Of a stretch of 43,944 bases of DNA, positions 32,064-37,802 are shown piece after piece. Below the pieces are notes generated by a model. It was not told where the DNA came from and made no database searches. It saw nothing but the letters and a program-made list of their open reading frames with translations. A program made the translations under genes and the position numbers. Positions within the stretch are counted from its first letter, which is position 1. Each line of letters opens with the position of its first letter. Source of the DNA: Clostridia bacterium (GTDB lineage: Bacteria; Bacillota; Clostridia; Oscillospirales; CAG-272); contig JAFXJH010000143.1 in the NCBI GenBank assembly GCA_017532425.1, positions 1-43,944 on the forward strand, given 5' to 3'.

Positions 32064-33290
32064 TCAGAGCTCTACGCCGTTGAGCTTAAGAAGCTCTCTT
32101 GCGCTTTCAACAGAGTCCACGCCTTCCTTATTCTTGATAGGAGCGAATTCCTTCTTTCTGTCAACCTCGAAGGAGAGGCAGGAATCAACCATATGGACCA
32201 TATCAAGGATAAGTGTTTCGAACTTATATCCATTAGGTGCTTCGGGCTTTACAAGCTCGCCGTTTTCATCGATGTAAGGGATCTTCTTTTCAACGATATG
32301 GAGAGGCATTCTCTTGTTCATATTGGACTTGAGAACCTCGATATTGAACATATAGTTAAGAATTACACCGAAGCTGTAGAGAAGCTCGCCGCGCTCGTCG
32401 CGGAGATTTATCATATCATCGGTAATTTCATAGTATTCAACGATGGAGGGCTTATTATCCTCAAGGCAAAGAACGCCGATCTTTTCCATCGGTTCAGCCT
32501 TACGAACGACCTTTGCGCCGCTCTGACGTCCGGATGCGATAGTTGCACCGACGAATGCGGGAGAGTTGATTCTCTGAAGAACGTTATCAACTGCAAATAT
32601 AGTCAGCCATTCAACGCCCTGCTTTTCAAGCTTTTCAACAAGGCCTGCCTTTTCAAGAGAAGTGAACCATCCGCCGTTTCCGTTAGGAGAAAGGGAGATT
32701 CTGTCCTTGCCTTCCATATAGATCTTTCCGTTATAGTCAACAGACGGAGCCATTTCCTGAACGAAGAAGTTTACGTAATCCTTGTTATATCCGAAATAGT
32801 TCATTTCCTCGAAGAAAGCGACAGTATCGTCGTTGTTCTTTTCACTTGTCATAATGCAAAGAGGCATCCAAGCGCCTGCCTGCTTAACAACGTCCATCAT
32901 ATTATTGATAAGACACTCGAAGATATAGAGAGGATGTGTAATACCTATATTATACATTCCCTTGGGCTTATCGCTGCCGAGACGTGTTCCCTGTCCGCCT
33001 GCAAGAAGTACTGCGCATACCTTGCCTGCCTTGATAGCTTCGATTCCCACCTTTTCAAACTCTTCCTTGCGTGCTTCGATCTCGTCGATCTCAAGTGCGC
33101 CGAGAGGAGCAAGAACGCCGCGATTTTCGATCTCGCTTCTGTTCTTAAGAATATCGAGAAGCTTCCAGTCGATGTTTTCGATCTGCTTTGCAAGGTTTGC
33201 CTTCGACTCCTCGCTGAGCTCGTCCCAATACTTAAGAAGATGTGTCTGTCCGTGATTTTCAAGAAGTTTGTAAAGTTCGTTATATGTCAT
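32064..33290 (-). CDS. UDPGP type 1 family nucleotidyltransferase
   Basis: Makes a UDP-sugar from UTP and a sugar-1-phosphate, either UDP-glucose or UDP-N-acetylhexosamine. The 408 residues match the eukaryotic-type (UDPGP type 1) fold rather than bacterial GalU. The nucleotide loop LAGGQGTRLG is at 96-105 and the KPKG lysines at 108-110, followed by MYNIGITHPLYIFE. Substrate choice cannot be decided by eye, although the LAGGQGTRLG form is typical of UDP-GlcNAc/GalNAc pyrophosphorylase-like members. It has its own promoter and a GGAGG ribosome site. Confidence 0.9.
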   Translation of the reverse strand: MTYNELYKLLENHGQTHLLKYWDELSEESKANLAKQIENIDWKLLDILKNRSEIENRGVLAPLGALEIDEIEARKEEFEKVGIEAIKAGKVCAVLLAGGQGTRLGSDKPKGMYNIGITHPLYIFECLINNMMDVVKQAGAWMPLCIMTSEKNNDDTVAFFEEMNYFGYNKDYVNFFVQEMAPSVDYNGKIYMEGKDRISLSPNGNGGWFTSLEKAGLVEKLEKQGVEWLTIFAVDNVLQRINSPAFVGATIASGRQSGAKVVRKAEPMEKIGVLCLEDNKPSIVEYYEITDDMINLRDERGELLYSFGVILNYMFNIEVLKSNMNKRMPLHIVEKKIPYIDENGELVKPEAPNGYKFETLILDMVHMVDSCLSFEVDRKKEFAPIKNKEGVDSVESARELLKLNGVEL

Positions 33291-33466: not shown

Positions 33467-33501
33467 AAAAAACGCCGCTCAAGGCTTTTTCCTCGAGCGG
33501 C
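33467..33501 (-). terminator. Terminator of the surface-protein transcript
   Basis: GCCGCTC (33501-33495) and GAGCGGC (33480-33474) pair on the minus strand and are followed by GTTTTTTGA. It lies 13 bp after the stop of the 221-residue gene. Confidence 0.85.
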
Positions 33502-33513
33502 ACACCGTCTTAT

Positions 33514-34179
33514 TTATTTTGAATTTTCATTTACGTAGGTATACACCGCGCTCACCTTTGCGCCGTAAGCATCGGTATATTCAAGTGTCAGAGTCACGAT
33601 CTCACTGCTCTTTTCATTACACGAAAGCGTTATTTTCGCTCCGCTTACCGATTCTGTCGGCAGTCCGTTTTTAAGAACCGCCTCGAGTGAAAGGACCTCG
33701 TCCTTTGCCTCTGCGCTGAAGCTTTCAAAGTTATCCGTGTTTATTTCAAGGCTTGGGATCTTACTCGGAAGGACTCCGTTTTCCCATACGATCGCAGAAT
33801 CCTTAAGTTCTCCGACCTCATCGTCTCCTTTGGCGTAGAGCGTTCCGGTTATCTCTGAAATGAATTCATCCGACTCTCCCACAGCGTTCAGCCTATCGTA
33901 TTTGTACGAAAGCTCCGCGCTCTTTTTCCCGTCCGACTCTGTCACCGTGAGAGTATATTCACCCTTGAGAGTAATGCCGTCAAGGGTATATTCAATACGG
34001 CAGACGTATTTATTTGCTTCAACCTCGGAGAGCGTTTTCGATATCCTTTTTACCACATTTTTCGGAGAATTATGTACGGCTATACCGACAGCCACTCCTA
34101 TGCCGATCATCAACGCGAGCGCCAACATCACGGATGCCGATATTATAATGATCTTTTTGTTTTTTGTAATGAAATTCAT
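33514..34179 (-). CDS. Unknown membrane-anchored protein downstream of the surface protein
   Basis: No recognised family. The 221 residues begin with a positively charged N-terminus and one membrane helix (about 9-36). An extracytoplasmic, beta-strand-rich domain follows, with alternating charged and hydroxylated residues and one cysteine in the first half (C59) and one near C190. It is 12 bp downstream of the large surface protein, with GAGGGTG before the ATG, so the two are surely co-transcribed. It may be a partner or anchor for the surface protein; this is inference. Confidence 0.8.
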   Translation of the reverse strand: MNFITKNKKIIIISASVMLALALMIGIGVAVGIAVHNSPKNVVKRISKTLSEVEANKYVCRIEYTLDGITLKGEYTLTVTESDGKKSAELSYKYDRLNAVGESDEFISEITGTLYAKGDDEVGELKDSAIVWENGVLPSKIPSLEINTDNFESFSAEAKDEVLSLEAVLKNGLPTESVSGAKITLSCNEKSSEIVTLTLEYTDAYGAKVSAVYTYVNENSK

Positions 34180-34191
34180 AATATCACACCC

Positions 34192-37100
34192 TCATCGTAT
34201 GTGTCCGAGCAGCTTCTTCAGCACTGTCCAAAGAAGTGCGAAAAACGTAACGTAGCTTATACTGAAGCTGTTTACCGAGATGCTTGCCTCTACCGCACCG
34301 GCAAATCCTTCGTTTATCCTCTTGACTTCCGAATTGTATTTTTCGATCTCTTTGTCGAGAATCTCAAGAGAAGCGGCAACGCCCGCGTCCTTCAGATAAA
34401 CGTCCGATTTGATCTTATACGCCTCGGACATAGCCGAAAATCTTTCCTCGGGTGTTTTTGCCTGCGCTATCTTATCTACGGCAGCGATAAAGTCCTGCGG
34501 CAGATAAGCAAATCTGTATTTTTCGGTAAACTGTGCGGTATATTCGGCATTCTGAGTAGCCTTTTCGGGCAGAGTCGGTGACCACGCGCTGAAAATATAT
34601 TCGTAAAGCTCTGTGCCCTCATGTATCGGTGACTCGGGCGGGATTATATCATCACCGTAATGAAGCACAAGCTCAGCCAGCACGCTTCCGTCGTAATTTT
34701 TGAATATTATGCGGTAATCGATATACGTTGCCGTGTATTTTGCGGTAACAACGCTGTCCGCTCTTACCTTTTTGTATTCGCCGTCCCACGAGTCAAAGGC
34801 GTAATCGTACGTATTGTCCGACGCTCTGCTCGGAGTATCGGGCAACACCGCACTCTCTCCGTGAAGAACGTTCTGAGTGCTTATGAGAGTGCCGTCCCAA
34901 TCGTAAAAATACACTGTATACAGCGGTTTTCCGTCGCTGAAGACTGCGGTAAGCTCGGTGTCCGCGCTGATATTATCGAAAGGCTTATCCCATCCGACAA
35001 ACTCGCATATCTTACCCTTTTCGTGCTCGTGCTCGGGAGTTTTTCCCTTATATTCTGCAGAGCCGCCGTATTCGACCTCGACCATATAAAGTATCGTGCC
35101 GTCATAGTTTCTGAAAACAACGGTATAGCTTCTTACAGTCTCTTCAAAGACCGCCTCGAATACCATATCTCCGCTGACCGTGATATTTTCATAATATCCG
35201 CTCCATCCGAGAAATACGTAGTAAAATGCTTTATTTGCTTCCTTTACCGGAATACTCACCGGCAGATCTATTACGCTTCCGTAAGCAAGCTCTGTCGTAT
35301 AGAATTCCATACCCTCGCTCATAAACCTTACTGTGTATTTTTCAAGGTGGTAAACGACCGTTATCTCGGTGTCCTCGGTGATATTTCCGCTGACCACCGC
35401 GATCGAGGAAATGTATCCGTCGAGCGCCGGTGTTTCCACGCTGTATTCTGCCATATGATCCATATTTTCCACAACGTACGGAGGGTAGACCTCTTCTCCG
35501 TTTACATGGACATATTTTACTGTCAGAGTGTATTTTCTTGCGCTGTATGTAACCTTAAACGAGAGCTCCTCGCCATCGGCTGTTCCGCTTACGAGTGAAA
35601 TATCGGGAAGGTATCCGACTATCTCGGGAGAGGCTATCTCATATACGCTTCCGAAGGGGGTCTCCAATGTTTTTACTTCTATCGGAGTTCCGTCTGAATA
35701 AATATATTCTACCCTTATTTTGCATGTTATCGGGGTATATATTACGTTTATTTCGATATTATCGGTAACACTGCCCTCGATTGCGGTGGCACTTGCCGTA
35801 TAGCCGTTTACTATCGGAGAGTCCACGTGATACTCTGTCATATAGACAAGGTCTGAAAGCAGGTAGGGTTCGCAAACGGGGCTTCCGTCTTCATAGACAT
35901 AATTTATCTTTATCGTATACAGGGTAGGCACGTATATCACGTTTATCTCGACATCCTCATCGGACATAACTATCTCTACCTGCTTCATATCGGGGCGGTA
36001 TCCCGCAACCGTGGGAGAAGGTATGATATATTCTTTTCCGACCGAGGCAAGCTCGTCGATATAGCTTTCGCAGACCTTTTCTCCGTTCTCATAAAGATAA
36101 TTTATTACAAGCTTACGGTATTTTTCATAAAGCACTCTGTGCTTTACTCCGCCGATCGGCATTTTACCCGAAATACTCTGTTCATTTGCGAAAAATCCGT
36201 CTACTGTCTGGAAATCGACCGAGAAATCCCTTCCCCAACCGATCTCTGCAGTATATGTCGGTGCAAGCTGTTCGCCGAGAATATTTTCATAGGTTATCTC
36301 AAGCGTGAACTTGATATCCGACAGGTCTACCGTGATATAGCTGTCCTTTTCGGTGAATTTCGGAGCCTTTGCAACGCGGAAGGTCGCTTCCTTGCCGCTG
36401 ATCCTCATTCCGTAGATATATCCGCCGTCATAGCGGTATTTTTCGATCTCGGTAAGCTCTGCGGTCGTCGGGTCGTACGCATAGATCGCATCCGAGGTGC
36501 TTATTACAAGCGTGCCGAAATAGCTTCCGAGTCCCGCATACGTATCAAGATAATAGCTCGTCGTGCTTTCCCACATAAACCATAGTGCGGGGATTGATAC
36601 AAGGCGGTTATACGTATTATTTTCGAAATCTATCTGTCCGAGTACAAGAGAGATCTCCTGCGATCCGCTATCCTTTACAAGGAGATACCAGTCTTCTCCG
36701 AGAGGCGCAATATCAAGACACACGCCGAGCCCTTTAACAAAGAAATTATCGTAACCGTCATCGAAAACAAGGTCTGACTCCCACTCGTAATGTCCGCTTG
36801 CCTCGATAGCAGCGTTTCCGCACAGGAAATTCGTATAAATAACGTCATCGAATCTGTCAAAGTTGCCCTGCACCATAGCATCGTCCCAGGTTATGTCGAG
36901 GTGATACCATTTACCGTCTATTTCCACGCAGTTCCATACGTGATTCATACTGATGCTTGCCACCGCACCCGAATTTATTTCAAGTCGGTTAAAGAGCTCG
37001 ATAGCAAGAAGGGTGTACGCCTGACAAACGCCCACTTTCTTCTTGAGGAATCTGTAGGAATCGTATACGGTATTCTCTGTGAATTCTGTAAAATTCGGAT

Positions 37101-37710
37101 CGTATCTGAAGTTTTTGACGATATGATCGTGCACGAAAAGTACCTTTTCAAGATCGCTCCACGCAGGATCTATCTCCTTGACTATCTTCGAAACAAGCTC
37201 TTCGTATTCCTTTTTCTGAGAAGCAAGCTCATCGCCCGTAGCCATATACTGCGGTGCAACGCTGAGCACCCTTTCTCCGTCGGCGTAATAGCTGTACGTT
37301 GGCTTTACGTAAAAAAGCTCGGGATTTGAATTAAGTATCTTCGTAATCGTACTGTTCAGGTCTTCCTTTGTAACTACTCCATCAAGACCCTCAAAGCTTA
37401 TCTCGGCTTCTGCCCTTCTCAGCCCGTCAAGCAGCATATTGTAAAGAGGAGATTCCTGCGAGGTACGCTTATGTGAAGCAAAAACTATACGTTTTTCATT
37501 CTTTTCGTCCGAGTTATGCGCAAAACGGTCATAGCTGCAGCAGACCGAATCGTACGAAAGATCGCCAAACTGTATAGCGTCTATTTTTCCCGACTCGGGT
37601 GTACCCTTTACGGCATCGCTTTTCAAAGGAGCAAGAAAGGAAACGAGCACACAGAGCGTAAGCGCCAGGACGGCTACACCAAGCGTATATACGGCATATC
37701 GTTTTTTCAC
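34192..37710 (-). CDS. Large surface protein: transglutaminase-like domain plus MucBP-like and InlB-like repeats
   Basis: A 1172-residue secreted protein starting at a GTG at 37710. AAAGGAGG lies 7 nt upstream; an ATG at 37752 has no ribosome site and only about 15 nt of leader. A signal/anchor helix covers about 5-27. A transglutaminase-like domain (about 180-290) has a plausible Cys-His-Asp triad: C229 (VGVCQAYTLL), H257 (SMNHVWNCVE) and D272 (WYHLDITWDD). After a beta-rich middle, at least four MucBP-like repeats occupy about 532-788, with a divergent one before them. Four InlB/WxG-like repeats occupy about 792-1061. A C-terminal helical region ends in a hydrophobic segment (last 30 residues) and a short basic tail. 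No LPXTG motif is seen. Likely surface-bound, with peptide cross-linking, proteolytic or adhesive activity; function unproved. Confidence 0.87.
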   Translation of the reverse strand: MKKRYAVYTLGVAVLALTLCVLVSFLAPLKSDAVKGTPESGKIDAIQFGDLSYDSVCCSYDRFAHNSDEKNEKRIVFASHKRTSQESPLYNMLLDGLRRAEAEISFEGLDGVVTKEDLNSTITKILNSNPELFYVKPTYSYYADGERVLSVAPQYMATGDELASQKKEYEELVSKIVKEIDPAWSDLEKVLFVHDHIVKNFRYDPNFTEFTENTVYDSYRFLKKKVGVCQAYTLLAIELFNRLEINSGAVASISMNHVWNCVEIDGKWYHLDITWDDAMVQGNFDRFDDVIYTNFLCGNAAIEASGHYEWESDLVFDDGYDNFFVKGLGVCLDIAPLGEDWYLLVKDSGSQEISLVLGQIDFENNTYNRLVSIPALWFMWESTTSYYLDTYAGLGSYFGTLVISTSDAIYAYDPTTAELTEIEKYRYDGGYIYGMRISGKEATFRVAKAPKFTEKDSYITVDLSDIKFTLEITYENILGEQLAPTYTAEIGWGRDFSVDFQTVDGFFANEQSISGKMPIGGVKHRVLYEKYRKLVINYLYENGEKVCESYIDELASVGKEYIIPSPTVAGYRPDMKQVEIVMSDEDVEINVIYVPTLYTIKINYVYEDGSPVCEPYLLSDLVYMTEYHVDSPIVNGYTASATAIEGSVTDNIEINVIYTPITCKIRVEYIYSDGTPIEVKTLETPFGSVYEIASPEIVGYLPDISLVSGTADGEELSFKVTYSARKYTLTVKYVHVNGEEVYPPYVVENMDHMAEYSVETPALDGYISSIAVVSGNITEDTEITVVYHLEKYTVRFMSEGMEFYTTELAYGSVIDLPVSIPVKEANKAFYYVFLGWSGYYENITVSGDMVFEAVFEETVRSYTVVFRNYDGTILYMVEVEYGGSAEYKGKTPEHEHEKGKICEFVGWDKPFDNISADTELTAVFSDGKPLYTVYFYDWDGTLISTQNVLHGESAVLPDTPSRASDNTYDYAFDSWDGEYKKVRADSVVTAKYTATYIDYRIIFKNYDGSVLAELVLHYGDDIIPPESPIHEGTELYEYIFSAWSPTLPEKATQNAEYTAQFTEKYRFAYLPQDFIAAVDKIAQAKTPEERFSAMSEAYKIKSDVYLKDAGVAASLEILDKEIEKYNSEVKRINEGFAGAVEASISVNSFSISYVTFFALLWTVLKKLLGHIR

Positions 37711-37717
37711 AGCTTTT

Positions 37718-37725
37718 CCTCCTTT
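37718..37725 (-). promoter_or_regulatory. Ribosome binding site deciding the GTG start of the surface protein
   Basis: AAAGGAGG on the minus strand, 7 nt before the GTG at 37710, is a near-perfect Shine-Dalgarno sequence and favours GTG over the upstream ATG. Confidence 0.88.
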
Positions 37726-37755
37726 ACAGACATTAGCATAGGTCTTTTTCATATC

Positions 37756-37770
37756 GTAGACTTACTCTAC
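37756..37770. repeat. Short palindrome at the surface-gene transcription start
   Basis: GTAGA and TCTAC flank 5 nt (gtagacttactctac). It covers the predicted start site near 37767 and could be an operator or a 5' leader hairpin. Confidence 0.45.
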
Positions 37771-37773
37771 TCT

Positions 37774-37802
37774 ATAATATCACATATACACCCCTATGTC
37801 AA
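37774..37802 (-). promoter_or_regulatory. Promoter of the surface-protein transcript
   Basis: Minus-strand TTGACA (37802-37797) and TATTAT (37779-37774) with a 17-nt spacer. The leader to the GTG start is about 57 nt. Confidence 0.88.

Follow-up and report, generated by a model that had tools for sequence, protein, structure and literature searches.

Many microbial members of the transglutaminase-like superfamily are thought to be proteases. In the rumen bacterium Ruminococcus flavefaciens, secreted transglutaminase-like proteins carrying dockerins were ranked by the authors of that study as putative proteases (PMC2930009). A solved structure is available for the transglutaminase-fold (TG-fold) protein TglA of Streptococcus pyogenes (PDB 9crn), on which our literature search found no paper. 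TG-fold enzymes with dockerins or repeat stalks were frequent in the Clostridia genomes that we searched, and we found no known substrate for these enzymes. Here, we analyze a two-gene locus in a stretch of DNA of 43,944 nucleotides from a gut bacterium of the Clostridia (the window), which an earlier note, made from the sequence alone, had described as a surface system of a giant transglutaminase-like protein and an anchored partner. We estimate a probability of about 0.6 that this operon builds a surface-displayed TG-fold cysteine enzyme and a partner dedicated to its anchoring or assembly.

Results

Organization of the locus

Our genus sample comprised four genomes, i.e. the window genome and three metagenome-assembled genomes of Oscillospiraceae/Clostridia, namely SIG672, SIG665 and RGIG4151; of these, RGIG4151 originates from the colon of a roe deer. 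All window features given with coordinates below lie on the reverse strand. The gene for the large protein, a predicted secreted surface protein (34192-37710, stop codon included), is supported as an open reading frame by orthologues and by a clear ribosome-binding site (AAGGAGGAAAAGCTGTG) for the GTG start at 37710, giving a length of 1172 aa; an alternative upstream ATG would give 1186 aa. It is followed after a gap of 12 bp by the gene for the 221-aa membrane-anchored partner (33514-34179), which adjoins the large gene in all four genomes. A promoter of the form TTGACA-17-TATTAT with an extended -10 element (37774-37802; 11/12 consensus matches) precedes the pair and an intrinsic terminator with a 13-bp stem (33472-33503) lies 3' of the partner gene. 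By eye, a near-consensus promoter and a terminator also frame the pair in the other three genomes, where the sequence of the terminator stem differs. A two-gene operon with its own promoter and terminator, as proposed earlier, is therefore a recurring arrangement in the genus. Because the two genes overlap in SIG665, their translation may be coupled.

The pair is flanked by a divergent glgB, the gene for glycogen branching enzyme, on one side and by a UDPGP-type nucleotidyltransferase gene (32064-33290, reverse strand) on the other. The latter, 91-97% identical within the genus, did not turn up in any of the 35 further genera that we searched within the family and order, and was possibly acquired laterally. 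The glgB match in SIG665 (G002:C8:106333-108303) runs through two stop codons, perhaps reflecting a frameshift, an assembly error or alignment overshoot.

The predicted enzyme domain and a half-propeller behind it

The large protein starts with a signal peptide or N-terminal hydrophobic segment (aa 1-33, 37612-37710; hydropathy 2.51 at aa 9-27), for which the RGIG4151 orthologue has, by eye, a classic AYA cleavage site. Residues 78-328 (36727-37479) form a predicted TglA-like TG-fold enzyme domain, within which Pfam Transglut_core (PF01841) matched aa 177-272 (E 1.3e-9; 38.7 bits versus a curated cut-off of 23). A structural model of aa 30-530 had a pLDDT of 86.8, and the best fold match of aa 78-328 was 9crn, with a Z of 21.8 far above the next rows (rmsd 3.1 over 235 aa, 19% identity). 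A sequence profile search with hmmsearch also retrieved 9crn (E 8.7e-31), with the C, H and D of the large protein in register with those of 9crn. This alignment places the catalytic triad at C229 (37024-37026), H257 (36940-36942) and D272 (36895-36897), the residues named in the earlier note; each is invariant in 4/4 orthologues and in 29/29 aligned sequences. Conservation within the large protein peaks in the enzyme domain: across the four orthologues, 44% of its columns are invariant, as compared to 18-41% in the other domains and 4-7% at the ends. Based on the model and these alignments, we conclude that the large protein is a predicted TG-fold cysteine enzyme with an intact triad. Two more transglutaminase-like genes in the same genome (L055, G000:C94:1845-2156, and L056, G000:C51:37511-37873) have stronger Pfam scores than the gene in the window.

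Structure prediction not only returned the TG fold but also revealed, behind the enzyme, a three-bladed half β-propeller that had been overlooked in the earlier reading (about aa 319-476, 36283-36756). Its 12 modeled strands are arranged in three four-stranded blades with a pLDDT mostly around 90, and its fold matches, at a Z of about 10-11, were kelch propellers as well as two three-blade fragments, PknD-345 and Pizza3. The alignment also covers the half-propeller region in a number of relatives, among them L039, L058, L059, L063, L066 and L068, so that enzyme and half-propeller look like one travelling module. One of these relatives, L058 (5616-9467, reverse strand), encodes a 1283-aa protein in which the TG domain and half-propeller are followed by MBG/YDG repeats, a C-terminal hydrophobic segment and a basic tail.

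Predicted stalk repeats and the C-terminal end

Four MucBP repeats span aa 531-789 (35344-36120), as evidenced by alignment and by Pfam MucBP (PF06458), which matched in four stretches with 38.6 bits versus a cut-off of 23; Muc_B2 also matched, and MucBP matches are present in 4/4 orthologues. The earlier count of at least four such repeats thus holds, and a divergent fifth domain may precede them (about aa 477-530, 36121-36282), tentatively recognized from its pattern by eye and from modeled strands, with no detection by Pfam. Four further repeats of the List_Bact/Flg_new type, previously described as InlB-like, were delineated at aa 790-1063 (34522-35343) by internal alignment and hhalign. 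They stay below Pfam detection here, with no match to the InlB B-repeat (PF09479) in this large protein at E up to 5, but Flg_new was matched in 1/4 orthologues (E 4.9e-4) and hhalign gave a 98.5% profile match to the repeats of L065, in which Pfam finds Flg_new. Profile comparison thus supports relatedness, and the designation InlB-like and no closer one.

The following region (aa 1064-1145, 34276-34521) reads as probably helical from its sequence. Among 59 genomes, the last 112 residues (aa 1061-1172) were found in the genus only, and we rejected the idea that this region is a widely used anchor module. The protein ends in a hydrophobic segment followed by basic residues (34195-34275) and, as already noted, has no LPXTG motif; a sortase is encoded in the same genome. 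The hydrophobic end claimed earlier does exist, but it is only weakly hydrophobic, averaging 1.54 over 19 aa, and, while present in 3/4 orthologues, is lost in SIG665. Because of this weak hydrophobicity and the absence from SIG665, membrane anchoring of the large protein by its predicted tail is not secure.

The partner protein

The partner has a single N-terminal transmembrane segment (hydropathy 2.71), a predicted signal-anchor helix at about aa 8-36 (34072-34158) that is also a helix in the model, and we found neither a lipobox nor a clear cleavage site. In the model, generated from a four-sequence alignment and with a pLDDT of 66.8, the remaining part of the partner (about aa 39-221, 33517-34065) consists of one helix and 11 strands. 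The model gave fold matches to Csa1-type staphylococcal antigens (Z 8.8), LppX (7.6), LprG (7.5), and LolA and RseB (6-7), most of them below a Z of 8. Because one fold group recurs among the top rows, a LolA/LppX-like half-barrel is our best guess for this model. At the level of sequence, the earlier statement that the partner belongs to no known family stands, with no Pfam hit above cut-off and no PDB sequence hit (PF20187, PF24381 and ETRAMP were set aside with scores far below cut-off); at the level of predicted fold, it is qualified by the weak placement in the LolA/LppX/Csa1 half-barrel group.

Distribution, divergence and selection

The full-length large protein and the partner occur together and adjacent in 4/4 genus genomes and in 0/55 other relatives, so that the partner is present in every genome with the large protein. 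Outside the genus, a search of 295 genomes of the order for the partner gave no more than fragments of marginal significance (E 4e-4 to 1e-3). Inspection of the flanking ORFs at 21 other loci with TG genes showed no comparable small membrane protein, and we rejected the idea that it is a general companion of TG genes. Judged by these searches, the full architecture with its partner is restricted to one genus.

Fast change is common in surface proteins. Identity to the three orthologues is 65, 42 and 44% for the large protein, measured over its whole length, and 56, 33 and 31% for the partner. Because the neighboring UDPGP and glgB products are more alike across the same genomes (91-97% and 74-87% identical, respectively), the pair appears to diverge fast. 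Nonetheless, dN/dS between the window genome and SIG672 is 0.18 for the large protein and 0.15 for the partner, indicating that both genes are kept by purifying selection; in the remaining genome pairs, synonymous sites are saturated or nearly so. Orthologues and purifying selection rule out a chance ORF. A phage origin was rejected in that we found no relative among viral contigs.

Discussion

Based on the computed fold, intact triad, operon layout, co-inheritance and selection, we suggest the following model for the system. We infer that the large protein is exported, that the MucBP domains, four or five in number, and the four InlB-like ones together make up a stalk carrying the enzyme off the membrane, and that the C-terminal hydrophobic tail retains the protein at the membrane independently of sortase. 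The N-terminal half would be a TglA-like cysteine enzyme (C229-H257-D272) fused to the three-bladed half-propeller, which probably helps to hold the substrate or to pair two molecules. As to the substrate, we can only guess, with the prediction that amide bonds in extracellular proteins or peptides are the most likely target of the enzyme. The partner would be held by its N-terminal helix with the half-barrel beside the membrane and, as a further guess, most likely aids assembly or anchoring of the large protein.

By analogy, we give slightly better than even odds to a peptidase or isopeptidase and clearly lower odds to an enzyme that cross-links proteins, in view of the presumed protease role of many microbial members of the superfamily and of the ranking of the R. 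flavefaciens dockerin proteins. A C-H-D triad serves hydrolases and cross-linkers alike, and because both kinds use the same triad this preference is a prior rather than a test. In the cross-linking alternative, the enzyme would be a true acyl-transferase forming isopeptide bonds, either between surface proteins or between the cell and fibre or host protein, and the partner would serve as acceptor. The TG fold with its triad and the surface stalk agree with this explanation; yet the term cross-link was taken from the name transglutaminase and from nothing else, and the 27 positions invariant among the four partner sequences include no Gln, while the only Lys among them sit at the very start of the protein, on the cytoplasmic side. 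Overall, we regard cross-linking as rather unlikely. We regard it as still more improbable that the protein is primarily an adhesin whose repeats would attach to mucin glycans or to plant fibre, with the enzyme in an accessory role. The MucBP matches in 4/4 orthologues would fit an adhesin, but the enzyme domain is more conserved than the repeats, MucBP and InlB-type repeats often act as stalks, and the suggested attachment to mucin has no source other than the name MucBP.

It is also conceivable, if unlikely, that the partner acts independently as a half-barrel that binds a lipid or another hydrophobic ligand, and has no more than the operon in common with the large protein. The fold matches to LppX, LprG and LolA point in this direction, although they derive from a low-confidence model, and the partner adjoins the large gene in 4/4 genomes and gave no credible match elsewhere in our searches. 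A more specific version of our preferred reading of a displayed enzyme with a dedicated partner is that the half-barrel handles the large protein as a chaperone, inhibitor or membrane dock, making up a two-component, sortase-independent display system in a Gram-positive-type cell; we offer this as a speculation of low probability. Should the partner dock or regulate the enzyme, this would hint at a display route that bypasses sortase. The operon offers a compact test case: its enzyme has an intact triad, a solved structure to serve as template and a conserved half-propeller, and its partner is co-inherited.

How does the locus compare to known systems? The large protein resembles S. pyogenes TglA (9crn) in its transglutaminase-fold domain, N-terminal helical part and C-H-D triad; the 361-residue chain of 9crn, however, aligns to the enzyme domain alone, while here a half-propeller and a stalk follow. 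With the dockerin proteins of R. flavefaciens FD-1 (PMC2930009) and of the Clostridia loci L039, L059, L063, L068 and L070, it shares predicted secretion and a TG-like domain, and for several of the Clostridia relatives the alignment extends through the half-propeller region; the R. flavefaciens proteins were compared by description only. These proteins end in dockerins, whereas the large protein ends in MucBP/InlB-like repeats and a hydrophobic tail. Two ruminant-gut Ruminococcus MAGs have two tandem TG-fold genes (L045, 7758-9729; L046, 7761-10006), recalling a tandem set reported in R. flavefaciens. Because the enzyme half is joined elsewhere in Clostridia to dockerins in most cases, to choline-binding repeats in L041 and to MBG repeats in L058, varied surface or complex delivery appears to be the rule for it. 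As in MucBP and InlB B-repeat surface proteins, four MucBP and four InlB-like repeats are present, but here without LPXTG and with an N-terminal enzyme domain and a dedicated membrane partner. The low-confidence model of the partner, in turn, would resemble the LolA/LppX/LprG and staphylococcal Csa1 lipoproteins in its fold of a helix followed by 11 strands (best Z 8.8), and the partner differs from them in giving no sequence match and in having an uncleaved-looking helix instead of a lipobox as anchor. We conclude that the operon combines mostly known parts in a new way.
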